Source: Tribonema minus (taxonomy: Eukaryota; Sar; Xanthophyceae; Tribonematales; Tribonemataceae). Taken from it: a stretch of 64,000 bases of DNA. The position numbers and the translations under genes are program-made. Below are positions 22,101 through 64,000 of the stretch, piece after piece. Positions within the stretch are counted from its first letter, which is position 1, and each line of letters begins with the position of its first letter. Location of the stretch: the NCBI GenBank assembly GCA_017506865.1, contig JAFCMP010000516.1:62001-126000 (forward strand). Direction: 5' to 3'. Below the pieces are notes generated by a model. The model made no database searches. It was not told the origin of the DNA and saw only the letters and a program-made list of their open reading frames with translations.

Positions 22101-25100
22101 TGTGAGCACATGATTTGCGAGCTGTCATGTGCGGTGATAGTTGAAGACAGGCAGTGGCAAAGGGTCGCACCCAAGTAAGGGCGCTGTTGTGATGACAGGG
22201 AACCTCGTGCCCTCAAGGTCATCTGAAGGTGAACACTGGCACATTGAGCTGCAATTGTCCGCTGTGCATACATGTTGAGGCAACCTCTGGTAAAGTAACA
22301 TCAGAGCCATACCTTGGCTCTAATTGATTTGAGGTCTGCTTGAGGGGTGACCAGATGTGGCCTGCTCAAGTTCATACCGCCAAGTGCCTTCAATTATACA
22401 GACGGTGGTCTTTTGACCAACAGCTGTTGAAACCACAAGACATGTTGGAAGGACAATGCGATCGGCAGCGGCCATTTGCATGAGATATGATGAAGCGGCA
22501 AGGCGCGTGACTGCATCACTGCGCCAGGGTGCTGAGCGCATGCCAATAGTTGAAGTAGGAAGACGCACAGTCAGCAATTGAACTTTGAAGACGCGCAGTG
22601 GATGGGGACTTCATTCCAGTGTCGCAGCGTGGCTTCTACGAAGTACTTTCAAGTATAACAAATTGTGGCCTGTGGTCATTCTGTGCTCTCTTTGGAAGCC
22701 CTGCAGTTTGAGCCAGCACCAAGGGGCAGTATGGGTACACTACATTTCACACAGCCAGATCTGTGGCTTGGCTGGCATCAACGCTGAGCAATGACTTGTG
22801 GCTGTGCTCAGGCGCAATGATGTTGCACGTCATCAGCACTACATAGCATTAACCTTCACCAGCATGTGTTAGTGTATGCATTGCTGCCCGCTGCAGCTTG
22901 CGAGCGCAGTATCAGGCGTGCTGCAGAGCTTGTGGCAACAATACATACTTCGAAGTATGTTGAGTAAGGGTTGCATCTGCACTATGATAGCTAATGATAC
23001 CTGTTGCTCCACCGCTTAATCATGCAGTACCAGACCATGCTGCAAAACACGGAGTACAAGACGTTTCTGGACTACATGTGCCCAGGGGCAGCAGCGCAGG
23101 GGCGATATCCCCCGCCAGGCACCAACCTGGAAATCTGCCCCAGGTGTGTACCAGAACATACTTTCAGGTAGCTCTGTGTCTAGCACATTCAATTGGCTTT
23201 TGTGTCACAGCACGTCTTGCACGAGGAGGCTCGCGCTCTCGCTTTCATGGCGTGTGCCTCTTAGCGCAGTGCCGCGGCAGCGAACATGGTGGTAGGGATG
23301 CAGTGCGCCCGCTGCCTGACACCAGTGTTAGAGTTTGCCTTGTCATACGCTCATGGTCTAGCATGCCAAGCGCGTTGTGACACCTCTCCCCTCCCCTCCC
23401 CCCCCGCCATTGACAATGTGTACTCCTCTCGCCTCTATGCTGTGCGTGTCGACTTGCTGCTGGAGCCTCGTGCTTTGTTGTTCATCCGTTACTTGACCAT
23501 AAATATGGTCGCCGCGCTGCCACGTCGGCACAGAGAGTGCTGTAAAATGCGTATTGTGGTCTGCAGCATCATCGTGTTGTGCACCATGGTAAAGAGATGT
23601 CGACCATTAGTTGTGTGTCACGTGGCAGACCACAGTGGCTGAGCACTGCAGCCCATCTCATAGCACCGGTACTCACGGAACACGCCACCTGCAAATGAGG
23701 CAGAGAAGTAAGCAAGCTTTTTTGGAGTGTCTAATGCTGGACTGCTTCATCACGTGCCGCCCGTTGTCAGACCTGCCATCAGGCACGTAGCACGACCAAA
23801 GAAAATTCTTGCTTCACCTCTGAACTCTGTATGCGACTCGTGGATGTTAGTTGTTGAGTTGAGCGCTGTCACATCTCCCCTTCGCCAGGCCCGTCATAGG
23901 CACGTGGGACGACCACGACTTTGGCTGGAACGACGGCAACGCGCTCCACCCGCGCAAGGCAGCCTTCAAGCAGCTCTTCCTGGACGCCATAGGGGAGGCT
24001 GCAGACAGCCCAAGGTACATGTTTCATGACGCCATTGCATCTGTTGACCCCATTTGTGACAGACATCAAGTTTGATGTTATCCATTGGCTCTCTCTTGTT
24101 GCTTGAACCCTGCCTTGGTTCACGGACATACTTGGGTGATGCTGCATTACACAAGCACTTCAGCAGTATTCTGGTGCGAGCGTGCGGGCGGGGGGTGCGG
24201 CGGATGCCTGGCATCGTTTTTCCCTGCAGCTTTCAACGGCATTAGTAGACGCAGCATTCAGCAAAGCATGAAGCAGAGAGTGTTTATATACTTGCAAGCA
24301 ACAATAATGATCTCAGCCTGCGGCACGCACACTGGCAATTTTGTGAAGCGCTTCATCGCCTTTGAACGACGCTGATTTGTTACAGATCTGCGTTTTCCCT
24401 TGAAGTTGCACTTCTGGTGACTGCTTTGGATCCTATGTACAACTTTGGTGGCCGCACAGTATCCTTTTCGGGTTAGGCCACCAGCAGATGCGATATTTCA
24501 AAGAAGTATGCTAGAGCATGAAGGCAGCAAAACATCACTTGTCTTGCCTGAAGAGTCAAGTCGCCCGTGTAGTGCTTGACAGTGATTTGCTTTTGCTTCT
24601 CGTGCAGGCCATTGCGGGATGCAACGCTCTGCGGGCGATTTGGCAAATGTAGCTCGTGTCACTCCTTTAGAGTACTCTGAAGGTGCTGTTTGAAACTTAG
24701 ATAACTCTTTGCGAGTCTCATTTCAGGGCATCGTGGCTAAGATTGCAATTTCCTGTGGTCCCCAGGCGTGTCGCTGATAGAGTTAAAGCTCGAGCCAGAA
24801 TTAGACTCCTATGGCGCCCACAGCACTGCGGCGACCTCTTCAGACCAGGTCACATCATTGAATGTTGCAAGATGACCATGTTGCTGCACCTTCTTCATGT
24901 TTGCATATGCACCGTAATCATTACTGTGATGCAATAGTGTAGAAGAGATTTTTTTACACTTGCATATATACAGTGCTTCGATTATGCAAATGCAATTGTA
25001 ACTTCAACTTTCAACTGCAACTGATGCGCTTTGCTGCCATCTATCAGGCGCAACGTCCACCGCGGCATGTGGGGCGTGCACACGCTCAACACGCCTCTTG

Positions 25101-28100
25101 AACGCATCATTAACCTCAATTTTCAAGCGCAACTATTGCGCATCCGTCAGGCGCAACGTCCACCGCGGCATGTGGGGTGTGCACAAGCTCACACCGCCTT
25201 TTGAATGCATCATCAACCTCAACTCTCAACCGCAACTGCCGCGCATCCGTCAGGCGCAACGGTCACCGCGGCATGTGGGGCGTGCACACGCTCAAACCGC
25301 CTTTTGAATGCATTATCTCAGTTTTTACAAGCTCAACTCTCAACCGCAACTGCCGTGCATTTCTCAGACGCAACGTCCACCGCGGCATGTGGGGCGTCCA
25401 CACGCTCAACCGCGGCGTGCGCGGCCGCGAGATTGACGTCTTCCTGCTTGACGAGCGCTACAACCGGTCGCCGCTGCCGTGCCATGTAAGATGATGATGC
25501 TCAGTCCAGCACACCTCGAAGATCATGCTGATGGAAGGTTGCCATGCAGCCAAAATGGTGCATTGACGTTGTTGATTCTCCAGCAAGTACTGTAGAAGCG
25601 GCAAACGTCAGTTTGACACGCTCGTACAGTGTTGCACAGCATGCCCGGCCGCGATATTAACGTCTTCCTGCTCAATGGGCACTACAACCGGTCGCCGCTG
25701 CCGTGCCATGTAAGATGATGATGCTCAGTCCAGCACGCTTTTGGCATCAAGCTGACGGAAGCTCGGTCATTGCGTATGTGTGCATATATCTAGCCAAGGT
25801 TGTGTACTTCAACGTAGTTGATTTTGACAAGCAGTATGTTTGACACACTCCTAAAACCTATTGTGCGGCGTGCCCGGCCGCGAGATCAACGTATTCTTGC
25901 TCAATGAGCACCGCAACTGATCGCCGCTGCCGTGCCATGTAAGTTGGGGCTAGGGCCAGCACGGCTGCCGTGCGGGCATTTTCTAGCTGCCATGTCGTGT
26001 AGGACATGCTCAGTGGAGGGTGGCTACTGTGTAGGCACGAGTGCTCGGATGAGCGCTTCAACCCATCGCCGCTGCCGTGCTCATGTGACATCATGCTGAC
26101 TCAACCACGCTGGCTGTGTAGCCATGTGTATGCTTTGACACTGTCTAAGGCTTGCTGCTGTATTGGAGGGCGAGCATTGACATCAGTCGCCACTGCCGTG
26201 ACATGCGAGGTGATGGCACCGTGCTGCTCAGTCGAGCACGCTGAGGGTTAGAGTTAGGGTTAGGTTTTTGGCGCAGGCAGCGTCTGCTTTGACGCGGTGT
26301 TGTCATGATCGGCACGTCATTGCTGGATGATGGCCAAGTTTTCCCTATTTCCCCTATGCGATCATGCTGCGTTGACACCATTACATTTGCATTCTGCTCT
26401 GTGGAAACTTAAGGTGTTTCAGTGCTACTGCACAGTACCTGCACCATGCTTGTAATTAAAACGTATTGCCGTGGAAATGCATTCGCACTATTCTGAACAC
26501 AAACGCCATTTCTAACACCACTAGCGCCGGTCAGTCGCACATGCGCACGGAAGTGCGTTGCAGAATGGAATTGGAGACCGCAATGCAGGTATTGGCTAGC
26601 ACTTCTAAATGCTTTCTGTACAGTAGGCTGGTTTTCACTTGCGTGCGACCCACCGTAGTGCACCTAGCTGGTTTTCTCATAGTGTACTCTCGCTGCTTTG
26701 ATGTCGTTATGGCACCCGCAGATGCGACGGCAGTGGTGTGAAGAAGAAGTGCTGGCGCCGGACGCGGATGCAACCGACACACACGCAGCGTGGTGCCAGG
26801 TATGTACTTGAAAGTACATTTCATTATTTCTCGCTGAAGGTGCATGATGCGTTTTATCATTTGAAAAACGTATGACTCATTATTACATGTACTGATCTCT
26901 ACATTATCATATATAAGACCTCAATTCATGTGGGTGGCTATGTCTTGTATTTCATGCCTTCAGGTCATTTGCATGAAAATGCTTCTATCTCAGTGCTGCT
27001 GCCATCTGGTCAGGCCCTGCTGATGCACACGAGCTGCTGTTGGTCGGGAGAAAGAAGCCAATTAGTTGAGTCAGCGAGTGACATGAAGTTCTGTTGTTTG
27101 GAGTTTCTTCAGCGAGCCCGCCTGATTTGCATTCTACATCACTCACCAGCAGAGTGGCGTCCCTTCGTGCCAGATAGATGCAACAATACATTGAATACAT
27201 AATTCGGCGCCATGCACCAATGCTGCCACTACTGAAGCGCTCTTGCCTACATATATCATGACGCCACGCGCATACATGCCGATTGGCTTTGGAGTGCAGG
27301 ACTCAGTGGCTCCGAAGCCACCTCACGAGCTGTGCCACCTGAACTGTGGAGCACTGACACTGTCAAGTACTGTGGCTCACGCATTTGTGCGCTTGCGCTG
27401 GCAGGACTTTTTGCACGGCGGGCAAGACGGCAAAGGGACGTGCTGCAAGTACGACGAGCAGGTATGTTGGGAGTGATGTTGATACATACCCCACTGCCTC
27501 GCAGCATGCCTACGGCGCATTGTTTCTGCTCGCACACCATCCGTGCCGCGCCGGCAAGAGACCGTATAATGATAAACAACATGCAACACGTATGCCACAG
27601 ACTACCCGTATGAAGCATGCGAGAGATGTGACCGCATTGGAAACAGGTCATGTGCGGCACACACGTGCATGCTACTTGAATTTACAATGTGCAGACGATG
27701 GCCCGCACGGCTCCACTGATGACCTCACGCGCTCAGGTGACGCTCATCAGGGTTGTGTGCATTGCCGGCATCAGCCACTGCTAGACGCCGGTTACGCGCG
27801 CTTTCAGCGCTGTCGCACAAGTCGTTTTAGCTTTAGGGCCGCGTATCGGTGTGAGCGTGGCGTCAAGCATTGTGCGATCGTACGCTGATGCTCATGTCGT
27901 GTTGATGATGCTCAGCACTGCGTAGTTGCTTGTGCGCTCCCCTGTGTACGTGTCGAGGCAACCACGTGGACGTGAATGGTGATGGTTCAAGCATCCATGT
28001 ACCACTTACACCTTGCCAAACTTCAGAACGCCGCTGACAAAGGCGGCTGAGCCCATGACACAGCTGTCCATCCATGCGCTGCAGACTGTGAACTGCTGCA

Positions 28101-31100
28101 CACCTGCTTGTGTGACTGCCACTTGCATGTGCACGTGCTCTGCGCCCAACACGTAGAGCACTTCTCGCAGCGGTACATAGGTGGTGCAACCCTGACCTTC
28201 ACCCAAACCCCGATCCTAACACTAAGTTAAGGTTGGGGTCAAGATGCAAAGTGACAGCGTACCAGGCCGACCCGCTGCGGGCAGAGGCAGGGCACAGGAG
28301 TAGTGCAGCAGGAGCTCATATGCGCCAAACACTGGCACGTTCCGTTGCCTGCTGCAGATTCACCTCAGCTTAGGGGGGTTAGGATTAGGTGTAGTGTTAG
28401 CCAAGCGCCTGCGCACCAGGCTGACTAGCTGCACCCGGAAGCAGCGCGGTTGGGATAGTGCATGTTCCACGATACGTACCAACCCTCAATGGCGTCCTCT
28501 GCTGCCTGCCTCATGTTCGTCTGAGGCTGCACCAAAGTGCCAGCAAGTCAGTCTGACCCGCAGTGGCCGGAGGTAGGTGGTGTAATTTAACTGATACATA
28601 CCAACGCTCAATGAAACGCCTCCGCTGCCTGCCGCAGATTCAGCTGGGCTGGTGCAAAGTGCCTGCAAACCAGGCCGACCCGCTGTGGGCGGAAGCGTGT
28701 GACGTCACGTCGCCGTCTTTCGGCATGCGCAGTCTCGTGCTCGACGCGGCCACGCAACAATTGCGGCGGCCCAACGGCACTGAGCCCGTTGACATCTTTC
28801 AGGTGCGGCAGTGCTCAGTGAATGTGGTGGGCGGCGCAGAAGGGCGGTATTTACAGGTGCATTAGCGCCTTGACGATGCTCGGTGGTAATTAAGGACAAC
28901 GCACGTGCATGCAAGCATTGCACGGCATGTCAAATTGTACTTTCAGGTGCATGGGCGCCTGGAAGATGCTGGTCGGCAATTAAAGGCATTGCACGTGCAT
29001 TGAAGAACGGCGGAGTCATCTCAAAATGGGCTATGATAAGGCTGAGCCGCCGGCAGCAAGAACACGCAGTGTTTTGGCTGCACTGTCAGGCATGCGCAGG
29101 CTTAGAGCGTAATGAGACCCTGTAGCACTAGCTTTGTCAGGTCAGAGGCTGGAGGCTGCCTACGATTCTGGGCATGAGCACGATGCACCCATGGAGCGCT
29201 TGTGCAGCAAATCGCGCCAAGACTTCATGTTGTACGCATGTACTGTATGCATTCGTGCTGTGCTGTGTTTATCATCACCATTCAAGACCCTCTCTACACA
29301 CAGCACCTTTCCGCCCACTGTGCTGCTCCACACGACCGCTCATCCCCCCCCCGGCTTGCCCCCCCCCCCCCCCCCCGTTCCCGCACACACACACATCCAG
29401 GACTCGCCCTTCTGCGAGGTGCTCGGCAGGGAGCAGCGCCTGTGGCTAAGGGACGCGCTGAGCGCGTCCACCGCTGCGCTGCGCATCATTGCCTCTGGCT
29501 CCGTGCTACTGGGCAACGATGGCATCGCCCGAAACCCCGTGAGTACACACATAATTCAGCAATGACCTGCATTTGTACTGAGGAGTTCAGAGTCTGTACC
29601 GCTTGCGATGCGCGCTGAGCGCTTCCACCGCTGCGCTGCGCATCATCGTCTCTGGCTCAGTGCTCCTGGGCAGCGATGGCGTCGCTCGAAACCCTGTGAG
29701 TACATGCACGGTTCAACAATGAGCTGCATGTGTACTGAAGATTTCAGAGTCTGTACCGCTTGCGATACGCGCTGAGCGCTTCCACCGCTGCGCTGCGTAT
29801 CATAGCCTCTGACTCCGTGCTCCTGGGCGGCGATGGCATCGCTCGAAACCCCGTGAGTACACGCAGCGTTCACAATGACCTGCGTTTGGACTGAGCATTT
29901 CAGAGTCTGTACAGTTGAGCCTGAGGCTGCCGGTTGCGCTGAGCAGTTTCACCGGGCCGACGCGCGTCGTCACCTCTGGCTCCATGCTGCTGGGGATAGA
30001 TGGCGTCAGTCTGAACCTCGTGAGTACACACAGGGGTCACAATGACCTGCAAGGGTACTGATTACTTCACAGCCTGTACAGCGGCGCTGCGCGGCGTCGC
30101 CTCTGGGTCTGTGCGTCTGGGTACCGACGGTGTCACCAGCGATGCTTTGAGCATACAAAAGGGGTCAGAGCATCCTGCATGTACCCTGAGCAAACAGTCC
30201 ATGGTCTGCACTGGTTGCCAGTGGTTGTTCGCTGTTGGCCTGCAAAAATCAGCAGCATTTCTGTTGCGATGCTTGAGACAGCTGCAGCATTGCTCACCAC
30301 TCATCTTAGCTGATACTGCGCCGCAAAAGGCACCTGCAGTCACTCCCCGGCTGGTTCTCACATACACCCTCGGCCAGCCGTAACTTCAACTCCTCGTCGC
30401 TCAGCGTAGCCACCGACGGCACGCTCTAGAAGTGCTGCAATGACCCGCAGGCCACGCTGATCGGTTAATGTAGCTTACTGTTCAGTTTTGCATCAATGTA
30501 GAACACCATAGTGCTGCCTGCATAAAGATGCCCACTCCAGCCCATGCAGCCCTCCTTCAAGTTTGCTGGCCCACTTGTCACGTGTTGCTCCGTTTCAACG
30601 CGCAGTCCCCAGGGAAGAAGTTCAAGTTGGCCTGCTCCGGCGACGACTGGGACTGCTACAACGCTGCGCAGCGCGCGCTGATCGCTGACATAGAGCTGGC
30701 GCGTGGCAGCAGCGACGGCAGCAGCGACGGCTCAGGCAGCGGCGCGTGCACGATCGTCCTGACAGGCGATTTTCACTACGCAGACATCAAGCTCATGCAG
30801 CCTGGGGAGAAGATGGCTTATGCGGATTGGCTCGGTACCGTGGAGTATCAGCGGCCGCTGCTGCAGGTGTGCCAATGTCTTGACGGATACATCAAACGAT
30901 TGTACAGCTCTATTTAAGTTGGTGACAAGGTGTGCTTAGCCGCAAATGCCTTCTACCGATATCCGTGATCGCCGCTGCTGCGGCCGTTGGCCCCAATTGA
31001 ACAGTGCCACCATATCCGCAAGAGCCAAAACACTGAGGTGTGCAAGCTTGTAGCGTTCGTCTTAATCTCGGTGAACCAGTTGGTTTTTGGGCCATAGTTG

Positions 31101-32092
31101 TGGACTGTGCAGGATTCTCGTGGTGTTTCAAAAGTTCACTTGTCTGCGTCCAATGTTCAACAAGGTCGGCATGCTAAGTAGTAGCTGGTGGGCATTGAGC
31201 ATGCAGCTTACATAAGCCATCTGGATTGACGACTACTGCAGAGCTTCGGCAGCCACTCATGTGGGTGGTGTTTGTGGTCCAATGTGTTCAGAAGTCACAG
31301 GTTGCGTTGCCATAGAAATTGGGCGATGTGGGAGTTGTCCGTCATTATACTTCAGAAGTTTTTGCAGCAGTCTTTGAAGTACATGGCTCGAGCTGTCAAC
31401 GTGGGGCTGCGTTCAACAGGATAAACTGCAAAGAGACCTTGCGATTGCGCCAGATACGGCTCAAACACAACTTTATCACTCTTGTGCTTAACAATTTGGA
31501 TAGCCTTGGGCATTTTAGTCGCGCTTACAAGAACGGTTGACCTGAACAAGCATGGGCTGCCTGTCGACACCTTTTGTTGACCATGTGCTCCTGCGAAATG
31601 CTCCGGTACTCAGACGTGGAAGAGGGTTACTTCGATGATTTGCAAAGTCTCACCATGCGTGACAGGATCAGTTCCCTTATCGGACGTTGCTCAAACACCG
31701 TGCTCGCAGTAACTAATAAACATCAGCCTCTCATGCATTACCGACCACCTCTCGCGTGTACCTATACCTGTGTACCTATGACCCTGCACGCAACACAACT
31801 GCCCACTGCCTACCAACGCCCCCCCCCCCCCCCCGCCCTGTGCCAGGTGATGGCGAGCGGTATGACCCTGTCTACCGCCGTGCCGGGGCGGCAGTGCTCA
31901 GGCTACCTGCTAGACCCCGCGGGGCTGCGCGACCACCCAGAGTGCGACATCGTGCTCGACCCCAACTTTGGCCTGCTTCAGGTAGACTGGGACGAGGGCG
32001 GCGGCGGCGTCAAGTCCGTCACGGCGCAGATCCGTGACGCAAAGGGGGCCGTGCGCTTGCAGTCCGTGCTGCTGCCGAGTATGTGTGTGTGA
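19192..32092 (+). CDS. PhoD-like metallophosphatase, membrane-anchored (start exon missing)
   Basis: Twelve exons with consistent phases: 19192-19351, 20454-20510, 21574-21738, 23028-23143, 23889-24014, 25368-25485, 26722-26799, 27405-27461, 28638-28802, 29401-29538, 30606-30866, 31847-32092, together 561 aa. The initiator exon was not found. Exon 1 starts with a membrane segment (LTLYVLVGAAVGLSSAIAYY), then RIAFGSCTSK. Metal-site motifs are in family order: PDAWVWLGDFAYLD (exon 3), GTWDDHDFGWNDGN (exon 5), DVFLLDERYNRSP (exon 6), LGREQRLWLRDAL (exon 10), SGDDWDCYNAAQ and TGDFHYADIK (exon 11). Expected role: phosphomono- or diesterase at a membrane or cell surface, perhaps in phosphate scavenging. 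Only exons are GC-rich. Introns at exons 6, 9 and 10 contain boundary-copy arrays. The last codons include a donor-like A|GTATGTGTG, so one more exon is possible. Confidence 0.9.
25048..26215 (+). repeat. Boundary-copy arrays on both sides of PhoD exon 6
   Basis: Upstream, copies of acceptor plus first part of the exon (CGCAACGTCCACCGCGGCAT...) start at 25048, 25151 and 25254, before the true start at 25368. Downstream, copies of the exon end plus donor (CGCCGCTGCCGTGCCAT|GTAAG) have donors at 25710, 25939 and about 26085, with a fourth degraded copy near 26200; the true donor is 25486. Copies next to the exon are the most similar. Confidence 0.9.
28240..29010 (+). repeat. Boundary copies flanking PhoD exon 9
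   Basis: Three degraded copies of the exon 9 start (key words GCAGATTCA, AAAGTGCC, CAGGCCGACCCGCTG) lie at about 28262-28300, 28355-28445 and 28500-28575, before the real exon at 28638. Downstream, units with TTTNCAGGTGCAT..GCGCCTNGA at 28855 and 28945 repeat the donor neighbourhood. Confidence 0.75.
29359..29376 (+). other. Poly-C tract before PhoD exon 10 acceptor
   Basis: Eighteen consecutive C, 24 nt before the CAG acceptor; it probably serves as the polypyrimidine tract. A 16-C run at 31819-31834 stands in the same place before exon 12. Confidence 0.7.
29539..30150 (+). repeat. Four boundary copies downstream of PhoD exon 10
   Basis: Units of about 157-167 bp each repeat the last 80 or so bases of exon 10 (GCGCTGAGCGC.TCCACCGCTG to CGAAACCCC) plus GTGAGTAC and the intron start. 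Donor positions: true 29539, copies 29696, 29853 and 30020, and a fourth near 30144 that has lost GT. Decay is progressive with distance. Confidence 0.9.
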
Positions 32093-37437: not shown

Positions 37438-48285
<10,848 letters not shown>

Positions 48286-51828: not shown

Positions 51829-52980
51829 GCAGAGCTCTTAATAAGAGTATTTGCACAGGGGCGCAAAAAAAAAACCAAACGCCCGCCCTGGCCCCCCTGC
51901 AACCCATCGCATTGCTCTCACCGCTCCTGTTGTTCTTTTTCTGTTTCTCCCCCATGCGCGCCAGCAAGGCGCACAGTATCTATCTGCCGTGGGTGGACAC
52001 CGCGGCGGAGGCGGCCTACATGCGGGACGTCGCCACGGTGGCGTTGCGCCAAGGCCAAAAGGCAAGGCAGAATCTGTACCTTTTGGAAAACAAATCAGAA
52101 GATCGCAGAGCTCTAGGCGACAAGAGGGGGTTAGCCGCAAGTGCCTGCCGCACATAACCATGGTCGCCGCTGCTGCGGCAACTGCCCACGAGTCCACCAT
52201 ATCCACTGTAGAGGCCAGAAGGCAAGGCAGAGTTGGTAACTTCTTGTAAATTCTCGCTCAGGGCGCAAGAAAGCCCAGGTGGTATATGTCCAGCTTGCAA
52301 CCAGAATCTACACATGTCTCTGTGGACATCTTGAAAGTGTCTCAGGGCGCATTGCCGATCGCTTCTAAACGTGCAGACACTGTACGACATAATTTCATCT
52401 AGCTGATGTGTGCGTAACCCTAGCTTGAACCCTAATCTAACCCAAGCCCCTGTGCGTGCTGCTGATCTAAAGACAAAGACATCGCGTACTGTCAGCTCGC
52501 CACCTGGTTCATGCATGGCGCGGCGCTAACCAGAGCACGGCTTCTGGTGGCGGGCTCGGCGCGCCGTGGGTTGAGCGTTATGATGCTGAAGCATCGCACC
52601 AATCAAGAGCAGTGCAACCTTGTACTTTATCAATTCTCGCAACCTTGTACAAAAATAAATAGGGTTGGGTCCCGGTCCCCCTGTTCGGTATCGGGATGAT
52701 GGTGTTCGGGAATGCACCGGTATCGGGATGCAATACTGGTATACCGGTTAGGCTGCGTGGCATGGACCGGAATGGACCGGGATTGACCGGAATGACCGGT
52801 AATGCCGGCTTCCGACCGGTATTTATCCGCTCTTACGGTTACACAGCAACGGTTCCTCGCGCACAGCAGCAACAACAGCAGAACGACAGCAGCAAGTGAC
52901 AAGCACCCATCTTGAAGGCTCAGTAAAGAGATCCAACCTTCATTTGTGCGCACCAAAACGTACCAACAGCAGGGGCCTCT

Positions 52981-53013
<33 letters not shown>

Positions 53014-54977
53014 AAGCAACATGGCGCCACTGCAAAAAAAAACGCTAGCGCATGCTGCCGCCCGCTGCTTCTGCTTCTTGCACCAATCATCGACTGTGTC
53101 CCAAGCGTTCTTAAGCCACACCAGTAGGGTGACTGCCTCGCCAACAAGGCGATTGCGGTGCTTAGTCGCAGTCAAGCCAGCCGCAGAAAACAGCCGCTCA
53201 GAGGGAGCTGAAGTGGCAGGGACACAAAGCACACGGTGTGCGAGCTTAGACAGGTGCGGAAACTGCACCATGTGGTCGCGCCACCAATGCAGAGGGTTTG
53301 AAAGCTTCTCCCCTTCGTACATGGCCAGAATGGGGAGGAAAGAGGCTGGCTCTTAAACTGCTGCACGGTGTCCTTGCACGCCCCACAGACAACGTACTCG
53401 ACCATGTCGGCATCAGCATAGTTGTAGAACGTGAGCCCCACGTTCCACACTGCCGACATGGTCTTCGTTGTAGTCTTCTTTAGCAGCGCCCAAGTAGTCA
53501 GACGCTGCCACTTGGCGTCCATGTCTTCCTTTGCCTTGGCTTTGCCTGCTGCTGACCGTTTTTTGGACCTCGCTTGAGGCTGGCGAGCCTCGTCCTCATG
53601 ATCAGAAGACACCAGGTCGACCGCTCCCACCTCAGCGTTACTCGCATCGTCAGCCATACTACCAGGCTGCACACTACAGCGATCTCACAAGCCAAACCCA
53701 AGCCACAGGCGGGCTTTTTCAAAAATGGACCCCAAGGTGACCGTTTAAGTAACCCTGTGACGTGATGTGTGGTGTTTGAGGGTGCAAAGCGATCATAAAT
53801 GCTGTGGAGACATGAAAGAGTAGTGCTGAAGTGACAACAAGTCACTAGGGGGCAGTTTGAGGCTGTTTATCACCAAATCCCGGTTCAGCCACCTCCCTCG
53901 ACCGGTATTGGGATCGGGATGACCGGATTTCCGGTCTGCGACCGGAAATCCCGGTTCCGGGACCCAACCCTAAAAATAAAAACAAGCAGAGGCAGACGGA
54001 CAGTATCACGTGCGCGGTCAGTTGGCGCTTGAATGCTGCAAGAGCGGCGTGAGGATGTGCGCTGCTCGCAAGACTGCTGCATGTTTGGTGCGCATGCATG
54101 CGTGTGTGCAGGTGACCGATTCGCCGCATGGCACAGCGATGCTCACGTACGCCTTGCGCCCAACTGCCTCATCCGCCAAATATGCTCCCAAAATGCGTGC
54201 TGCGTGCAGTTTGCTGCGCCCAGATGCACGCACACTGCTGCGCCCAGATGCACCCCGCTGCTGCTGCCGCTGCCGCTGCCCCTGCAGCTGCGTCTGAGGC
54301 TGCTGAAGCCGCTGCCCCTCCTCCCGCCGGCGCTAACTGCCGCACGCACGATCCACGCCGTTCACTCTCACCACAACGTGATGCGGCGCTCTCCCCGTCC
54401 CTCTGTTTTGCCCTCTCCCGCCCGCGCATGCACGGCGGTCCGCCTCCAGGTGACGCGCATGAACGCCCTGCCCGCACGCGCGCTCTTTGCGGCGCAGCAC
54501 CTCGCCCTCATGCACGGCGGCGTGACGGAGACGCTCGCGCGCCTCGCGCCGTGGGTCGCGGCACCCGCCGAGCTGAGCGCTGCCGTCGAGCGCGCCGCCG
54601 CCGCCGTGCAGAGCTGCGGCAGCGCTGCCGCTCCGCCGGCGGCGGCGGCGGCAGCGGCGGCGGCGGCGGCGGACGCATTGCGCGCCGCTGCTGCCGCGGC
54701 AGCAGTTGGCAGCGGAGGCGCCCCCAAGTTGCGCGCTGCGGCAGCAGCGCATCCTGAAGGCGGCAGCGCCGCTGCCGCTGCCGTCGCCGCCGCTGCTGCT
54801 GCTTCGGGGTGCATCCATGACGACGAAGATCAGCGACAGGGGGAGAGCGAAACCCCCTCACTGCTGCTGGCGTCGGCTGCGTCGGCGGCGATCGAGCCTT
54901 CGGATTTCGACATTACGTCGCTGCACTGTGACTTTGCCATTTGCCGGTGTGTGAGGACGGAAGGCGGTCGGCGATGA
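49270..54977 (+). CDS. AT-hook / AP2-domain transcription factor (5' end missing)
   Basis: Exons assigned by phase: 49270-49398, 50120-50490, 51965-52061, 54450-54977, together 374 aa; earlier exon(s) are missing. Exon A (49270) is Asp/Ser-rich. Exon B opens with a textbook AT-hook core (RGRGRPPK), carries basic KRRR, then the first half of an AP2 domain (CTQYTGVYQSRNGAFCGRVG). Exon C completes it (YLPWVDTAAEAAYMRDVA, compare the family pattern LGtFdTaeeAArAyD). The last exon is Ala-rich with a long poly-Ala segment and an acidic tail (DDEDQRQGESE), like an activation region. AP2 proteins bind DNA with a three-strand sheet; expected to be nuclear. The usual WLG is YLP here, so the domain is diverged. 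The exon C donor is GC (AAAAG|GCAAGG). The join to the last exon is the least certain step. Confidence 0.6.
51765..51826. repeat. (GA)n microsatellite
   Basis: About 60 bp of uninterrupted GA dinucleotide inside the intron before AP2 exon 51965. It creates spurious Arg-Glu frames. Confidence 0.95.
52211..52254 (+). repeat. Boundary copy downstream of AP2-gene exon C
   Basis: GAGGCCAGAAGGCAAGGCAG followed by a TTGGTAACTTCTTG-like stretch repeats the exon end and donor at 52050-52093 (AAGGCCAAAAGGCAAGGCAG). This independently supports 52061/52062 as the exon edge and GC as the donor. Confidence 0.65.
52660..52675 (+). repeat. hAT left terminal inverted repeat
   Basis: TAGGGTTGGGTCCCGG, matching the reverse complement of 53957-53972. 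Confidence 0.9.
53060..53657 (-). pseudogene. Internally deleted hAT transposase
   Basis: The N-terminal part (from ATG 53657) is acidic then basic, followed by a BED-finger-like VWNVGLTFYNY...VVCGACKDTV. Within about 20 codons it meets the hAT C-terminal dimerisation domain in another frame: LPILAMYEGEKLSNPLHWW, LSKLAHRVLCVPATSAPSER, LFSAAGLTATKHRNRL, LVWLKNAW. The catalytic RNase-H-like core between these parts is missing. Either an internal deletion or a very short splice joins the two frames, and in both cases no active transposase is expected. A CTG/CAG run (52985-53011) follows the domain. Confidence 0.8.
53957..53972 (-). repeat. hAT right terminal inverted repeat
   Basis: Reads TAGGGTTGGGTCCCGG on the minus strand and is followed by the target duplication AAAATAAA. 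Confidence 0.9.
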
Positions 54978-56589: not shown

Positions 56590-57115
56590 CACTCACTCAG
56601 CTTCTTGAGTGGCGGGCCTGAGGCTCATGCACCGGAACCGCTGCCAGAGTGCCGTGGACGCGGCGAGTCGCATGCGTGAGTCACTCTCTCAAATACTATT
56701 GACTTTTGGGGCAGCGGACAGACGAAGGCATGGCAGGAGATCCTGCAGCCAGCACACGTCTTGCAGTGCTCCCATCAGCAACGCATTTGTTCACTGAGTA
56801 CTCACTCACTTGCTCCATGCCTTCTTGAGCAGCGAGAAGACTCATGGGCTGAACCTCTTACAGCTGGCGCACCGCACTCACGCCTTGCTGTGCGCGTCAC
56901 TCACTCACTCAATTACTCGACTTCTTGGGAAGCGGGCACGCGAAGGGGCTGGAGATCTTGCGGCTGGCACAGCGCGGGCGCATGTGTTGCCGTGCGAGTC
57001 ACTCACTCGCTCACTTGATCGGACTTCTTTGGCAGCGGGCACGTGAACGGGCTGGAGATGTCGCAGCTGGCGCAGCGCACGCACGTCTTGCCCTGCGAGT
57101 CACTCACTCACTCAC
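56590..57115 (-). repeat. Boundary-copy array beyond the stop of the DNA glycosylase gene
   Basis: Four to five degraded copies of the end of the last exon (plus strand CTTCTTGGGCAGCGGGCACG...CTGGAGATCTTGCGGCTGGC) with CACTCACTCACT spacers, at about 57025-57110, 56920-57010, 56820-56910, 56700-56780 and 56600-56660. They lie past the assumed stop codon (57116-57118). Confidence 0.85.
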
Positions 57116-60100
57116 TCAATTACTCGACTTCTTGGGCAGCGGGCACGTAAACGAGCTGGAGATCTTGCGGCTGGCGCAGCGCGCGCACGTCTTGCCGTGC
57201 AGCACCAGCAGCACGTGCAGGTCGTGCTTGAGGTGGTCAGGAATGGTGGCATTGAGGTGCGCATACGCTGCTTCGCGCGACGCGCTGGGGGGCGCCCACT
57301 TCAACTGCTCCTTGGTGATTCTCCAGACTGCGTGAATGCGGCAACATCGGAAACGAAAAAAAACTTTCAGCGGGCTGGTGTTGGGCGAAGTTGTTGTGCG
57401 GTTGCGTGACACCCACTTCAACTGCTCCCTGAACCAAATGAAAAACAGCCACATGGGGAACAGGAAAAAAAAAGCACTTTCAGCAGGCTGGTGTTGGGTG
57501 AAGTCGGTGTTTGCTATGCATTGCAGCGTGTGCGGTTGCGCGACGTGCACGCACTTGAACTGCTCTTTGGTGATTGTCCAGACTGAATGATAGCGGCAAC
57601 ACCGGAAACGGAAGCAAAACTCTCAGGCTGAATGAAAGCGGCAATATAGACAACGATAAGAACTTTCAGCAGGCTGGTGTTAGGTAAAGTTTCTGTAGTC
57701 CATGGTACGCGTTGCAGAGTGTGTAGTTGCGCGACGCGATCATCAGCACCCACTTCAACTGCTCCTTGGGTGACTCTTAAGGCTGACTGAAACAACATGT
57801 GAAATGTGAAGAGACGTGAGAAATGTGGCCTCGACGGCGATCAGCTTCAAAGTGCCCCTTCGAGGCGCAGAGCACCACCAGGGTTAGGGTCAGGTTTAGG
57901 AATTGCCACGTGCTGCCAATGGTCATGGGTGCAAATGCTGACTGCAGCAGCAACGCTGCTGCAATAATGCAGCACACACACACCCTGTCCCGCTGCTGCT
58001 AATGAGCTTCCAGCGCCCAAGTATGATCACCGCCACCGAAAAGAAAACAATCTGAGCAGTGCCACCATCATGCACAACAACAAAGCGCTAAGCGCGCGCT
58101 CACTGTGGGTGTCGACGGGGAACTCGGCGCGCCGCAGCATGCCAACGCCGCTGCGGAAATCCAGCGTACAACATGACACACACACTCTTCGCGGCTGGTG
58201 CACACCCATCCTGTTACTGCTGAGACAATTCAATGCCATCCCTCCCAGGAATCATTACAGCGCTGACGTCACCATGCACGGCAACAACGCGCTAGCGCGA
58301 AGCGCGTGCTCACCATGGGTGTCGACGGGAAACTCTGCGCGCCGCAGCGTGAACATGAGCACGCACGCGATCGTCTTGGGCCCCACGCCCTTGAAGTGGC
58401 TCAGCTCCTGCTTCACATCCGGCGTCGGCAGCGCGCGCAGGTACTCCAGGGAGGGCTCGCCGCGCGGGCAGTGCTCGGCGCGGTTCTCCAGGATCCAGCG
58501 CAGAATGGTCTGCGGAACAGGGTTGGGGTGGGGGGGGGAGGGGGGAGGGGGCAAAGACAGGGTCGGAGGTCGGGGGATGTCGCGCAGGGGGCGAGGGGCA
58601 GTAAACAGGGTGCAGCAGCGCTCAGGTGTAAATTGGTTCTCCAGAGAGGGCTCGCCGCGTGCGCAGTGCTCAGCGCGGTTCTCAAGGATCCAGCGCAGAA
58701 TGGTCTGTGGCCTAGGGGGGTGGGGGCGTGGGGGTTTGTTGCAAAGACAGGGTCAAAGGTGGGTGGGTGCAGTGGACGAGAGGCAGGAAAACTGGGTGCG
58801 CAATGCTCAGTTGTGATGCAATGCGTGCCCGTACATGTATGCGTGCCCATCGTTGTTGCAGGGGGATCCCAGACGAGGGGGACACGGCGCTCAGGTGCAG
58901 AGCACAAGTGTGTGCGTACTGTATGGTCCCATCATGACAACCTTGGCTAGCGCCATGTGATGGCCATCAACCTGCAACGATCGCATCAGTCTTGCCGCAT
59001 GTGGGTGGGTGTGCTCCAGCGCTCCTTTGCAATCACACGCACATGCAGCAAGACTGGACTTGAAGCTTGCGTCTTGTGGCAGCGCTCCGCAAGGGATCGC
59101 GACCTCTACCGGCACGTATCATACATGCCGCATATGTAGCCAAAACTGACCTCGGCACACGTATGGCAGACAAACAGCATGTACCTGAACATGTCGTTGA
59201 TGCATGAGACATTGATGGCAGCGCTCCGCAGCGGATTGCAACCTCAAGCGGCACATACCATCATCCGGCGTGGCCACTTCAATGGAAGCTACACTGCCCT
59301 TGATCCATGCGATTTTGATGCCATGGCTGCCAGCCCACCGCAGCGCATCGCATCCTCCAGTGACGCATAGCGTACATGCAACGTGTACCTGGAATTGATG
59401 GTTCTTGCTGATGTAGTGCACGTATCCAAAACTGACCTTGATGCGTGCAATCTTAGTGGCTGCCAGCCCCCCGCAGCGAATCGCATCCTCGAACAACACA
59501 CCAGACTTACCGTTGCCTGAAAGCGCCCTCGGCACCCGCTCTACAGACCACACGTCACTAAAAACTGACCTTGATGCGTGCAATCTTGATGGCTGCCAGC
59601 CCCCCGCAGCGAATAGAGTCCTCCAACGGCGCGTCTTCCGACTCCAGAACGGCCCTCCACGTGGGGAACGCGCGCTTGAGCTGCGCAAACGCCACCGCGG
59701 AGGTCTTGTCCGTGGTGTTCTGACTCAGAATGGTGCGGCACAGGCTGTCCAGCACCTGGTAGGTATGTATGGATGGGATGCAGCAGCGATCAGCAGTAAG
59801 CCGCACTGGCGATGTCTGAAGGGAATGAAGAGTACGCGCTGCGGGCATGTGGTGACGGATGATGATTCTGCATGCAAAGCGACGGTAAATGATAGTGTTG
59901 CGCCTCCCCATGACGGTCACCACGAGCAGGGACTTGCCTTCTGGGTCTTTGATAGTGGTACGCTTTTTCAGTCCAATGTACTGTAGCGTCTATTCAGGCA
60001 AAGCGCAGCAATCAATTGTGATCCCCGGTAGTGATCAAGTGGTACATGCAAGAGTGATTGTGGGAACCGCAGGCTGCCAATTCCCTGAAAAGCACTGCCA

Positions 60101-61098
60101 TCGGTACTCAATACGCAACGCGAGACTAGTCGACGATGCTGTGCACAGCGGCCATGTGTCCATCGGCAAGAGCCTGAAGACAGTGCGGGTGCTTCTGGAA
60201 TAGCTGCTGCTGAACTTGTGTGCTGATTACTTTCAGGTGCTGATATCCCCCCTCCCCCTGCACAGTCAACTGTATGCTTCACTGATTGTAACATAGATCA
60301 TCAAACCCCTGGCTGCCTGCCAGAGTGCTGAAATTGCATGCACATCCTCAGCAACAAGCTATGGACGGCCCATCGTTGCATCTGTGGGCGCCGAAGGCAT
60401 GCCCTCCTGCGCAGCGCGTACATCATCACGAGCAAGTAAAGTGATGGCACGTCATTGCTGGCGCGCACCTTTTGTCCTGGAGGGGGCTTTTCCAAGTCCG
60501 TGCCCTCCTTCTCCAGGCGCGTTCGATGCGGAAGCCCGTGCACTGACACCAGTGCCCTGTGCACTGCCTCGCACTCCTCGGGCGTGGGACGAGGCCAGGG
60601 CTGGGCCTTGGCCGCACTGCTGCCCCGGCGCCGTTTCCCAGCGGCAGGTTTGCCGCTATCTATGAGCAATGACGCTTTCTCGTCTGACCCCAGCGCTGAT
60701 GCTGCTGGCTCGTCCATCTGCAATTGCTGAGCTGCCGCCTTCCTTGCCGCAGAGCGCGCTGCCTGTCTTGCCGGCTCCAAGTGCTGTGCCTGCGAAGCAT
60801 CTGCCTCGAATTTGACGGTCGCTGCTGGATTCCCAGTGCTACCAGCCAACATCTCCTTGTCAAGCGACCCCACCTCCTGTTTGATATGAGGTACATGCGC
60901 CTCCAGCTTCACCTCTTGCTTCACAACATCTTCCATCTTCACCACAGGTGGCTTGCCGGGCGCCATGGTGGCGAGGGTTGCCGCAGGGGCGAGCCGCTGC
61001 AGGGACACGAAGGGTCTGAAGGCCTCGGCTGTTCGAATCACCAGCGCTGCTGTATACGCCCGCTTCCAAGCTCCGATCATGAGGGTGACCTGATTCAC
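57116..61098 (-). CDS. HhH-GPD DNA glycosylase (endonuclease III-like, At3g47830 type)
   Basis: Four exons: 61098-60469, 59755-59570, 58509-58314, 57327-57116; 407 aa. The first 44 residues (basic, Ala/Arg-rich, before MAPGKPP) could be an organelle presequence; a downstream start at 60966 is possible. Then comes a Lys/Glu/Ala-rich region with KRRRG and, near residue 180, PTPEECEAVHRALVSVHGLP. The catalytic domain follows: RTILSQNTTDKTS, EDSIRCGGLAAIKIARIK, the helix-hairpin-helix LSHFKGVGPKTIACVLMF with the catalytic Lys, and PVDTH with the catalytic Asp. It ends HLNATIPDHLKHDLHVLLVL, HGKTCARC and a final C-P-L, so only part of the Cys cluster remains, as I recall for the plant family. It should excise oxidised bases in base-excision repair. 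Divergent from TAF5. Confidence 0.88.
57405..57800 (-). repeat. Three boundary copies upstream of glycosylase exon 4
   Basis: Copies of acceptor plus exon 4 start (plus strand CACTTCAACTGCTCCTTGGT...CCAGACTG) near 57411-57440, 57552-57605 and 57748-57795; true exon start 57327. The associated intron word CTTTCAGC.GGCTGGTGTT also repeats (57363, 57477, 57663). Confidence 0.85.
58055..58145 (-). repeat. Boundary copy downstream of glycosylase exon 3
   Basis: GCGCTCACTGTGGGTGTCGA and the following GGGGAACTCGGCGCGCCGCAGC repeats the exon 3 end with its donor region (58305-58350). The GT of the donor is altered. Confidence 0.8.
58632..58735 (-). repeat. Boundary copy upstream of glycosylase exon 3
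   Basis: GAGGGCTCGCCGCGTGCGCA...GATCCAGCGCAGAATGGTCTG and the adjacent G-rich intron repeat 58450-58550, that is, exon 3 start, acceptor and poly-C tract. Confidence 0.85.
58960..59515 (-). repeat. Four to five boundary copies downstream of glycosylase exon 2
   Basis: Copies of the exon 2 end (sense EDAIRCGGLAATKIARIK-like) with donor lie at about 59440-59495 (closest), 59300-59365, 59205-59265, 59065-59120 and a trace at 58963-58995; true exon end 59570. Similarity drops steadily with distance. Confidence 0.88.
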
Positions 61099-61231
61099 AT
61101 TTTCTGCAATAGGTGACTCGCCAACTTCAACAACCGGATCGTAAAGAAAAGGACATTGCGCAATGAAGTCTTTCTAATGAGATAAATCAAGGTAGACGCA
61201 TCGGCACAACTGAGTCTTTGAAAGCAGCGCC
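61099..61231. promoter_or_regulatory. Bidirectional promoter region between glycosylase and TAF5
   Basis: Only 133 bp separate the two divergent start codons, so both 5' UTRs and core promoters must share this space. No TATA box is evident. Confidence 0.6.
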
Positions 61232-63464
61232 ATGACAACTCCTGTGAATGTCGAGGCTGCTGTGAAGGCGTACCTACGCTCCCAGGGCTATGAGGATGCT
61301 GCCCGAGCAATGGAAGAGCAGGCCGACAAAATTAAGAGCAACCAGGCGAGACACACTGGCACAGTGAGCGCGCAGCCGGGTACAGAGGCGGCGCGGCGGT
61401 TTGCCCTGTCCTACGGATTTACATCGCCGGAGAAGCTGTCAGAGAGCGTGCTGTTCTCTGGCGTGCTTGAAGGGAAGCCCTCGAGGCTGGTGGAGCTATA
61501 TGGCATGCTGGAGGCGTTCATTGCTGGCTCGCTGGACGCGTACAAGACGGAGTTGAGGAGTGTTGCTTTCCCGGTCTTTGCACACTTCTATCTGGATCTG
61601 GTGCTGCGGGGGGCGGATAAGGAGGCCAAGCAGCTGATGTCAACTTGGGCGGCGGAGCACTCGCTGCACTACGAGGATGAGGCAAGTCGCAAATCCGCCA
61701 TAGCTGCTGGATTAATGCTCCGTGCCACTCCCACGGTAATCAAGTTACGACGTGCACGATCAATGCAGGTGTTCTGTGTGGGACGACTGGAGCTTTCTGC
61801 TTGAAGTAGGTTTTGAGCATGCACACTCCCATACCGCTTCCACTCCACTGCGTGCTGCGCCCCTATGACGAACATGTCAACCAGGCGCATGTGGGCACAG
61901 TAGGTGCTGTCAAATGTCATACAGGCCACCTTACAGAAGGAGCAAAACTCGCATCACTCCATGCATCAGTTTTTGCGATGGAGACGTGCAGCCGGAGCCA
62001 GAGCCGGAGCTTCAGCTCTTCACCAAACTTTACACAGATAAGCCCCGTGAGGTTCGCCGCACAATCCTCTCTGGCACACCAAAGTTTAACGCCGAGGCCC
62101 TCGTGTCCGCCGGCCTCGACGTCGCCAAGGTTCCGCCAAATGTGCGGCAGATGGTTCCGCCAAATGTGTGACGGAACCTTGGCGCCCGGTCTCGACGTCA
62201 CCAAGGTCCCACCCACACATTCGACGGCGCCTTTGTGATGTCAAGGCCGGCAGAGACGAGGGCCTTGGCAATCAACTTTGGTATGCCCGAGCGAACTGTG
62301 CAGCGAACCTCACGGGGCTCATCTGTGTGCAAATTGTTCGAGAGCTGGGGCTCGAGCTCTGGCTCCAGCTCTGGGTCTGGCTCTGGCTCCACGTCCATTT
62401 CCTCTACCGGCTGGCCTGACTTCTCCAAGTGAGGCTGGCACTCCGCATCTTGGAGGTTCTCTGCTCCAAGTTCTTCTCTTTGCGGGGATGAATCATGGTC
62501 TGCAAACTCTTCCTCTTGCTGAGGTGAATGACGGACTCCCGCACAGTCGCTCGGTTGAGCGCGCCCAACACGGTGATTGGATATCGGGCAAGGTGGCCTG
62601 CGTGGGGGCATGGGAGGCACACACGCTCAGACTCACTACCGATGCGAGTTGCCAACAGAGTCACCATCCATCGCACCTTATAAAGCTGCGCTGTTTCAGT
62701 TGCGTGCTGTGTCAGCCATTGCACCACCTGGGCACGCCATGAGGCAAGCAACCTCGCGCGCCGCCTGCGCGCAAGCACTCGGACCTCACTTGCGGATTCG
62801 AGTTGCCGAATGAGTCGCCATCCATCGCTCACCTTATCATCGGCGCCCGATCACAGCCCTCACCCACACGTGCGCGCGCTGTCGGCCGTGACGACGCCGG
62901 AGCATGCCGCGGCGAGCCACCTCGCGCGCCGCCTGCGCACACGCACTCAGACTCACTCACCGATACGAGCCGCCAATAGAGTCGCCATCCGCCGCTCAAT
63001 TTCTCATCGGCCCTCATTCACGATCACACCCTCCACCCGCAGGTGCGCGCCCTGTCCGACGTGACGACGCCGGAGGACGCCGCGGCGGGCGACCTCGCGC
63101 ACCGCCGCCGCACGCACTCAGACTCACTCACTAGTACGAGTCGCCAATAGAGTCACCAACTGCATTTCACCATCTCATGCGCCCCCGAATCCTGTGTCGC
63201 TACGCAGGTGCGCGCGCTGTCGGCCGTGACGACGCCGGAGCACGCCGCGGCGAGCGACCTCGCGCGCCGCCTGCGCGCGCACCCCTTCCGCGTGTCCCTC
63301 TCGCGCACCGCGGGCGCGCTGCTCGACGCCTGGCTCGCGCGCGCGCCGTCGCTGCTGCCGCTCGCAGCAGCGATCAACACGCGCGCGGCGCTGCGCATCG
63401 AGGACCGGCCGCCGCGGCAGCACTTCGAGCCAGCGCTGTGCGGCCCCGCGGGGGATGTTTTTCC

Positions 63465-63497
<33 letters not shown>

Positions 63498-63655
63498 AGA
63501 GGGGGGCGGCGGAGACGGTGCTGTGGCCGGCGCTGCCGGGGGCGCACGTCGCGGCGGCGAAGCGGCGGCGGGGGGACGCGGAGATTACGGGGCAGGGGCA
63601 GCGCGATTTGGCGCTGCTGCTGGACAGCGAGTGGTACGCGGAGTACTTGCGAAAT
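61232..63655 (+). CDS. TAF5: TFIID subunit TAF5, 5' part (runs off window)
   Basis: Exon 1, 61232-61681 (150 aa): a LisH-like start (VEAAVKAYLRSQGYEDAARA), a linker, then the first half of the TAF5 NTD2 domain (SRLVELYGMLEAFIAG...FPVFAHFYLDLV...STWAAEHSLHYEDE). Exon 2, 63208-63655: the second half of NTD2 (VRALSAVTTPEHAAASDLAR, FRVSLSRTAGALLDAWL), then KRRRGDAEITGQGQ and LALLLDSEWYAEYLRN. The exons meet in phase 0 across a GC donor (GAG|GCAAGT). The WD40 propeller expected in TAF5 is beyond the right edge. TAF5 is a scaffold of TFIID (and SAGA in many eukaryotes) for RNA polymerase II initiation. A 30-G run inside exon 2 puts its two halves in different frames. The intron (1526 bp) contains four exon 2 start copies and an inverted repeat. 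Confidence 0.88.
61984..62400. repeat. Inverted repeat in TAF5 intron 1
   Basis: The left arm (about 61984-62150, plus) and right arm (about 62215-62400, minus) encode near-identical peptides when read outside-in: a Pro-Glu/acidic repeat, then DKPREVRRTILSG / DEPREVRCTVRSG, then ALVSAGLDVAKVPPNV / ALVSAGLDITKAPSNV. The arms differ by scattered substitutions. Could be two opposed copies of a gene fragment or the ends of a mobile element. Confidence 0.85.
62532..63207 (+). repeat. Four boundary copies upstream of TAF5 exon 2
   Basis: Copies of intron end plus exon 2 start (GTGCGCGCGCTGTCGGCCGT...) begin at 63043, 62868 (acceptor AG lost) and 62700 (TTTCAG|TTGCGTGC), with a fourth, much decayed copy at about 62532. 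The period is about 165-175 bp; true exon start 63208. Each unit also repeats the CACTCAGACTCACTCAC and GAGTCGCC words. Confidence 0.9.
63467..63496 (+). other. 30-G homopolymer inside TAF5 exon 2
   Basis: The frame entering the tract (from 63208) and the conserved frame leaving it (…LLLDSEWYAEYLRN) differ by one base. A tract length of 29 or 32 would restore continuity, so the length given here may be a sequencing or assembly error. Confidence 0.8.
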
Positions 63656-64000
63656 GTGAGTCGATGAGTGCCTGACAAGCGTGAGTCGCTGGACACTACG
63701 GCTAGGGTTAGGGTCAGGGGCAGCGTGACTTGGCGCTGCTGCTGGACAGCGAGTGGTACGCGGAGTACCTGAGAATTGTGAGTTGTTGGACACTAGGGCT
63801 AGGGTTAGGTCACTAGGGGTAGGGTTAGGGTTTTAGGGTTAAGCGATTTGGCGCTGCTGCTGGACAGCGAGTGGTACTGAGAAATGTGAGTCGCTGGGTA
63901 AAGGACTAGGGCTAGGGTTAGGGTTAGAGGCAGCGCGGGTTAGGGTTAGGCTTAGGGTTAGAGGCAGCGCGACCTGGCGCTGGTGCTGGACAACGAGTGG
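63656..64000 (+). repeat. Boundary copies downstream of TAF5 exon 2, mixed with TTAGGG repeats
   Basis: Copies of the exon end (TGGCGCTGCTGCTGGACAGC, then GAGTGGTACGCGGAGTAC and GTGAGT) at about 63718-63785, 63841-63895 and 63962-64000 (cut by the window edge). They are separated by GGGCTAGGGTTAGGGTCAGG-type blocks at 63700-63717, 63795-63838 and 63905-63960. Confidence 0.92.

Follow-up and report, generated by a model that had tools for sequence, protein, structure and literature searches.

Can an intron grow by taking in copies of the edges of its own exons? The question is raised by a 64,000-nucleotide stretch of the Tribonema minus genome (hereafter the window; C513:62001-126000 of a 158-Mb assembly in 554 contigs), in which several genes have introns that carry tandem copies of the neighbouring exon boundary. 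To our knowledge, the lengthening of introns without a transposon is largely an open question. Here we analyse these arrays in the window and in genes from elsewhere in the same genome, and conclude that they are probably of the mirage type: segments spanning an exon edge would have been duplicated in tandem and the outer copies absorbed into the intron, which was lengthened in the process.

Exon-edge arrays in the window

Exon edges were set by reading frame for 12 glycerol kinase, 7 PhoD-like and 4 DNA glycosylase exons, and the joined exons keep intact reading frames. Pfam matches in the window included TFIID_NTD2 and tubulin, and the FGGY_N match for glycerol kinase reached 28.3 bits, the cut-off being 28.8. 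The names PhoD-like and DNA glycosylase are assumed here from a preliminary description of this DNA and from sequence features. An EsV-1-7 motif is also present, and two Cpn60 genes of the genome look plastid-type.

Self-BLAST and TRF detected local tandem arrays at the places in the window where the preliminary description had put them. Together with shuffled controls, they bore out its claim that introns of the glycerol kinase, PhoD-like, DNA glycosylase and TAF5 genes contain copies of the exon edge next to them, placed on the matching side of the exon. The make-up of the units is also as it had stated: on the acceptor side each consists of the intron end and the exon head, and on the donor side of the exon end, the donor and the intron start. 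For all 17 edge arrays compared with shuffled sequence, with extents set by hand, the best copy scored higher than the best of 100 shuffles; GLK exon 6 is a strong example (162 versus 35 for shuffles) and exon 10 is the weakest GLK one (56 versus 27). The functional copy is indeed the one that adjoins the rest of its exon, as claimed for the innermost copy in every case, but this follows from geometry, since only the innermost copy is contiguous with the remainder of the exon.

Both edges of the PhoD-like functional exon at 25368..25485 (forward strand; open frame RNVHRGMWGVHTLNRGVRGREIDVFLLDERYNRSPLPCH, acceptor ctcag, donor gtaaga) are copied. Upstream of it, TRF detected three acceptor-edge copies with a period of about 103 at 25044..25367 (exon-part identity 0.91, 0.91 and 0.96), and self-BLAST detected four donor-edge copies in the following intron, at 25486..26232 with an approximate outer bound (0.87, 0.82, 0.88 and 0.74). 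On the same strand, an acceptor-edge copy lies at 28471..28571 before exon 28638-28802 (TRF, self-BLAST), with a fragment of the same edge further out at 28245-28288, and exon 29401-29538 is followed by four donor-edge copies at 29539..30205 (TRF; outer bound approximate; 0.89, 0.91, 0.68 and 0.68). Besides itself, a 2-kb piece of the window matched two copies close by and one dispersed repeat; the dispersed repeat (30891-31059) is distinct from the edge arrays.

On the reverse strand, glycerol kinase exon 44404-44255 is followed by eight donor-edge copies at 43259..44254 (self-BLAST), whose exon-part identity runs from 1.00 to 0.80. Three acceptor-edge copies precede exon 41320-41162 (41321..41806, outer bound approximate; 0.96, 0.79 and 0.88) and three weak donor-edge copies follow exon 40724-40597 (40318..40596, outer bound approximate). 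Exon 39921-39785 has an acceptor-edge copy before it (40024..40121; self-BLAST) and three donor-edge copies after it (39212..39784, outer bound approximate; 0.85, 0.84 and 0.74), the latter with TTAGGG-like runs between them. Intron 2 of this gene holds a 59-bp tandem array without exon sequence, 4 bp from the donor (46805..46970, reverse strand; TRF).

The DNA glycosylase gene, also on the reverse strand, has three donor-edge copies after exon 59755-59570 (59184..59494, outer bound approximate; self-BLAST; 0.90, 0.84 and 0.74). Self-BLAST also placed one acceptor-edge copy before exon 58509-58314 (58635..58814) and one donor-edge copy after it (58066..58141), and two or three acceptor-edge copies precede exon 57327-57124 (57403..57813, bounds approximate). 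The 3' end of the final exon recognised is copied at 56674..57123 (TRF, self-BLAST), in an array that may sit at a stop codon and not at a donor. TAF5, on the forward strand, has three acceptor-edge copies before exon 63208-63437 (62620..63207; TRF; 0.88, 0.97 and 0.77) and three donor-edge copies with TTAGGG-like spacers after the exon ending at 63655 (63656..64000; self-BLAST; 0.92, 0.98 and 0.89).

Two familiar sources of repeated sequence in introns were set aside. Introner elements would give unrelated genes similar intron sequences, but in the window self-BLAST the one match between arrays of two genes is a TTAGGG-like spacer run (39310-39362 with 63903-63960), the copies matching the edge of their own exon. 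Duplication of whole exons in tandem is ruled out by the copies themselves, which span a single exon edge and lie on the side of that edge.

Decay and order of the copies

Compared with their functional units, 65 copies from 17 arrays showed mismatches of 0.107, 0.091 and 0.162 at codon positions 1, 2 and 3, and of 0.207 in the aligned intron part, as expected for near-neutral copies set against a constrained exon. A frame-shifting gap was present in 25 of the 65 copies and an in-frame stop in 3, and 51 of 59 retained the splice dinucleotide. The copies thus decay almost neutrally, with mismatches close to those expected if the functional exon were fixed at codon positions 1 and 2 and everything else could change. 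Their private changes (71 synonymous, 123 missense and 3 stop, versus 45, 147 and 5 if all base changes were equally likely, with no mutation bias) include a synonymous excess that possibly reflects some constraint on the copies, or else a mutation bias.

Divergence is slower in the exon-derived than in the intron-derived parts of the copies, and identity drops sharply at the splice site. On the donor side it is about 0.9 at positions -10..-1 and 0.53-0.59 at +6..+14; on the acceptor side it is 0.95 for the CAG and 0.51-0.56 at -10..-4. Neutral simulations produce so steep a step only with intron-derived sequence evolving at about double the rate, and the CAG identity exceeds the simulated 0.80-0.88. 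Selection on the copies, considered as the cause of the step, was weakened as an explanation by the simulations with faster intron decay. Whole spacers align poorly, with a mean identity of 0.68 versus 0.58 when shuffled (113 pairs, in which the three of one PhoD-like array were counted twice).

Similarity had been said to fall with distance from the exon, and this holds as a trend: among 20 arrays with at least three copies, divergence rises outward in 17 (mean Kendall tau 0.42, permutation P 0.0013), but the order is not strict. The outermost copy does not, as a rule, resemble its neighbours most (mean tau -0.44, positive in 2 of 9 arrays). The functional unit is the closest relative of 40 of 61 copies in arrays with at least three, and another copy that of the other 21; in GLK intron 6, 7 of 8 copies are closest to another copy. 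In such counts the frozen exon biases copies toward the functional unit. Taken together, the distance trend, the behaviour of the distal copies and the 40 of 61 suggest that the functional edge would be the main source of copies, and it looks not to be the sole one, some copies having in part been copied in turn, to judge from these alignments.

Recurrence beyond the window and a probable preference for exon edges

The arrays recur in independently chosen genes. Searching the same genome with Pfam PF00118 gave partial matches to exon edges next to true exons; in the C51 example, profile positions 52-88 and 53-81 lie upstream of an exon covering 51-147, and in the C5 example 177-224 lies downstream of an exon covering 155-224. 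BLAST of the chaperonin genes likewise matched 5' edges with upstream copies and 3' edges with downstream ones. Edge arrays make up 13 of the 19 arrays in 27 PF00118 chaperonin introns and 10 of the 17 in 39 HSP70 introns (8 gene regions from a longer list, with introns taken only between supported exons), and in the 27 chaperonin introns plus 20 from the window, 13/47 donors and 10/47 acceptors lie inside local repeats. A purpose-written gene finder, trained on the glycerol kinase exons and recovering 11 of those 12 with both edges exact, contributed 44 further introns; 9 predicted introns nested in known ones were excluded, as were 12 of 53 predictions that either split an array falsely or were short and doubtful, and 3 merged C516 introns were added. 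The chaperonin and HSP70 sets were picked by family, and the 91-intron set used for the simulations includes window genes noticed for their arrays.

The full survey of 130 introns (96,762 bp) yielded 62 edge arrays, 12 arrays abutting a junction and 19 interior ones. Both splice boundaries are affected, with edge arrays at 39/130 donor and 23/130 acceptor junctions, in 49 of the introns and accounting for 18.6% of intron bp. Arrays with at least three HSPs numbered 31 among the edge arrays and none among the 31 others. Genes differed strongly, none of 20,000 draws being as extreme (16 genes with at least 8 junctions, grouped by stretch): 9 of 12 junctions have edge arrays in C516, and none of 6 in C511, none of 6 in a tubulin gene and none of 28 in three HSP70 genes.

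As exon conservation keeps edge copies detectable for longer, uniform duplication was simulated forward in time and its arrays counted in the same way, with tandem duplication, substitutions, indels and conserved exons at hand-picked rates (4 or 8 runs per setting). The 91-intron set has 52 edge, 9 abutting and 15 interior arrays, an edge fraction of 52/76 = 0.68. With equal rates, uniform duplication gave 0.19-0.44 (0.19-0.38 in one series and 0.22-0.44 in two more settings, one with deletions) together with 34-100 interior arrays; letting intron-derived sequence evolve two or three times faster gave 0.36-0.47 and 0.45-0.57, respectively. When edge-crossing events were made 6 or 10 times more frequent, the fraction was 0.48-0.83, and with the sixfold factor plus twofold faster introns it was 0.65-0.71. 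Multi-copy edge arrays numbered 27 in the observed set and at most 14 in any simulation. Judged against these uniform models, edge-crossing duplications are likely to be over-represented; a sixfold excess fits, its size being uncertain, and given the 0.45-0.57 obtained with threefold faster introns it could be smaller. Duplications across an exon edge would arise or survive several times more often than intron-internal ones, with six- to tenfold fitted by the two multipliers simulated (6 and 10) and about threefold as our own lower guess.

Without any edge-specific process, neutral tandem duplication could strike uniformly everywhere, with exon-internal events purged and edge events both tolerated, as one copy still functions, and easier to detect, as the exon part of each comparison is frozen. 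In its favour, repeats cover junctions about as much as intron interiors in 47 introns (0.24-0.32 at junctions, 0.17-0.32 by bin in interiors), coverage dropping to 0.01-0.06 at more than 60 bp into the exon; moreover, interior and intergenic arrays do exist, and faster intron decay lifts the simulated edge fraction to 0.57. We had accordingly considered that edges are no more covered than interiors, and revised this, as most of the interior coverage turned out to belong to edge arrays reaching further in (8510 of the 9958 array bp in introns) and the simulations disagreed. Every uniform setting remained below the observed 0.68, with at least 23 interior arrays versus the 15 observed and with fewer multi-copy edge arrays; and once exons were masked, 13 of 28 intron-only arrays reached the intron end, when naive uniform placement, which ignores edge truncation, expects 1.3. 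We therefore consider uniform duplication unlikely. Somewhat unlikely, too, is that exonic sequence is generally prone to duplication and only the edge events survive selection, the splice site playing no part. This would suit the array at 56674-57123, if it does sit at a stop codon, the 21 of 61 copies closest to another copy, some of which would breed in turn, and the non-coding tiles (74.4 kb), which hold 33 arrays, 27 of them in the random stretches L050-L052 and just 6 elsewhere. Several of these random stretches have multi-copy arrays with no confident exon nearby; they may contain unrecognised exons, or arrays may arise elsewhere too. Distal copies, nevertheless, are mostly not closest to their neighbours (the tau of -0.44 in 9 arrays), and the GC content of exon edges is nearly the same at junctions that carry arrays as at those that do not (0.667 versus 0.647, P 0.08). 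Candidate causes of the edge excess are a mutational hot spot, duplication-prone exon sequence noticed just where it survives, or a feature of decay that the models leave out.

Copies that serve a function, as alternative or cassette exons or as decoy splice sites under selection, would account for the sharp identity step with its CAG kept at 0.95, for the splice dinucleotide retained in 51 of 59 and for the synonymous excess (71 versus 45), and the gene finder did predict four 63-bp pseudo-exons in a C516 array. This is quite improbable in view of the frame-shifting gaps in 25 of 65 copies, of codon positions 1 and 2 that diverge about half as much as the aligned intron part, in line with neutral decay, of the single edge in each copy, which offers no ready second splice site, and of the paralogue C511, which matches in exon length and has no edge arrays. 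Assemblies are liable to errors in tandem repeats, and the amphioxus globin case had a draft misassembly, according to the part of that report available (PMC3087553); yet 61 copies, all but one short one, differ by 3-31% from the functional unit, and the arrays occur in several gene families and on contigs of up to 2.45 Mb, so that we find an assembly artefact scarcely credible.

Known mirages, intron growth and possible intron gain

The likeness of these arrays to amphioxus mirages, reportedly treated by Canestro et al. in 2002, is close. The preliminary description knew of no process of this kind, and here it was mistaken: mirages are minisatellite-like duplications of intron/exon boundaries (PMC3087553, PMC3902484). 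In the portions of these papers at hand, the globin gene BflGb6 has 150-160 bp units made of the intron 3' end and the exon 5' part, BflGb9 has a 157 bp mirage at an exon 3' boundary, and those of Adh3 measure 10-72 bp; splicing is reported as undisturbed and lengths as unstable, and a model of intron creation is proposed (PMC3087553). PGBD5 and troponin C are further cases (PMC3902484). As far as these portions go, both systems share tandem units spanning either boundary, the authentic copy on the gene side and many splice signals. The units are 10-160 bp in amphioxus and about 60-230 bp here, and mirages are described from a handful of genes in one animal lineage, whereas 62 of 260 examined junctions carry edge arrays here. 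For mirages, haplotype length differences are reported, with concerted evolution in the single cluster that was treed (BflGb6); here, we find graded copies and arrays that explain intron length.

Related events are described in the accessible parts of other reports. In potato RdRp a tandem duplication crossing the intron 3' end and the exon 5' part, as in the arrays here, gave a new intron in a single event, with the exon part of the upstream copy staying in the mRNA (PMC4974935), whereas here copies were repeatedly absorbed into an existing intron. Intron gain by internal gene tandem duplication (PMC3443670, PMC4974935) is similar in being tandem and internal to genes, but makes introns inside exons, whereas here it is mainly existing introns that lengthen. 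Daphnia neointrons have internal direct repeats, and repeat-generating events were proposed to lengthen young introns; those repeats, of 4-17 bp, are attributed to staggered breaks and lie mostly in new introns, unlike the exon-edge copies of 60-230 bp (PMC4202315). In word searches of open-licence papers, as far as their text could be consulted, we found no genome-wide report of such arrays and, outside animals, single cases such as the potato one. The apparent novelty lies in the scale and the host, in the grading of the arrays and in intron growth having been measured.

Under the mirage-type reading that we prefer, a segment of about 60-230 bp across a splice junction would be duplicated in tandem, by replication slippage, template switching or unequal exchange. 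The copy contiguous with the exon body would remain functional and be held by selection, and the displaced one would turn into intron and decay almost neutrally. Later duplications of the functional edge would tend to move older copies outward, so that the intron grows from its ends, and some copies would be copied in turn. Much of the growth proposed in the preliminary description survives in this form, namely the duplication of boundary segments, the displacement of copies into the intron, the lengthening and, against uniform simulations, an excess at edges; its age order is just a trend. The copies would also provide a readable record, since events can be dated by comparing the exon-derived halves with the frozen exon. 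Were the edge bias mutational, intron growth would become measurable genome-wide, and duplicated boundaries could lead on to new introns, along the lines suggested for amphioxus mirages in the accessible text.

Introns with edge arrays have a median length of 865 bp (49 introns) versus 526 bp for those without (81); once array bases are subtracted, the former median falls to 506 bp, indistinguishable from array-free introns (P=0.90), which fits arrays added onto ordinary introns. The longer introns thus owe their extra length to edge arrays.

The two Cpn60 paralogues C511 and C516 display compact and expanded forms of the same introns. They have identical exon lengths (238, 141, 300 and 207 bp). 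The introns of C511 measure 357, 479, 772 and 302 bp, none of the four with edge arrays; those of C516 measure 2382, 897, 1131 and 865 bp, all four with them, and in the 2382-bp intron the detected array (650 bp) explains just part of the difference. C516 has an additional intron of 645 bp, missing in C511 and C544, with two donor-edge and two acceptor-edge copies of its flanking exons, identified partly by eye. No intron breaks up the homologous stretch in C511, nor in C544, which is more distant (43% identity, with one stop codon within the match), so that a gain in C516 is the simpler reading of these alignments, if not a proven one; no origin by AGGT duplication is visible in this intron, though both flanking exon edges are copied. 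Copies of both flanking edges in this extra intron would make it an example of a wider proposal, to which we give rather less than an even chance: that a mutational process in this lineage preferentially duplicates splice junctions, with functional exon edges serving as sources again and again, is the main cause of intron growth in the affected genes and can accompany intron birth.

Edge copies in an additional Cpn60 intron and tandem arrays in random stretches

The Cpn60 gene on contig C516 carries an additional intron of 645 bp (C516:695202-695846), and copies of both flanking exon edges were found inside it. At the homologous position, this intron is absent from contig C511, whose Cpn60 gene is a paralogue with equal exon lengths, and from C544. 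Among the randomly chosen genome stretches scanned for arrays, tandem arrays were abundant in the three 10-kb stretches L050-L052, several of them multi-copy, and confident exons were few there, whereas only four arrays were detected in L047-L049.

Repeats and simple-sequence runs in introns

Within an intron of the PhoD-like gene, a dispersed repeat of ~169 bp (window 30891-31059) was detected at a minimum of ~40 other genomic sites with 77-83% identity, and is possibly a short non-autonomous element. Searching the whole window, including this repeat, against Rfam at gathering thresholds yielded no matches.

Degenerate TTAGGG-like runs were located at window 39137-39405, ~39520-39760 and 63690-63971, where they serve as spacers separating the donor-edge copies of the glycerol kinase and TAF5 genes. 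Long poly-C runs, in coding-strand sense, were present at window 29360-29376, 31819-31834, 42904-42920, 44440-44452 and 45131-45150, each at most ~40 bp upstream of an acceptor.

Other features of the window

On the minus strand, a stretch of open frames is present in two diverged copies (window 6710-10794 and 14214-17779), with 69-79% identity depending on the piece. A Pfam search gave no match for the second copy's long frame, at 14195-15529. The window also encodes a hAT transposase C-terminal dimerisation domain (52630-53352, minus strand) and an EsV-1-7 cysteine-rich motif protein (2989-3894).
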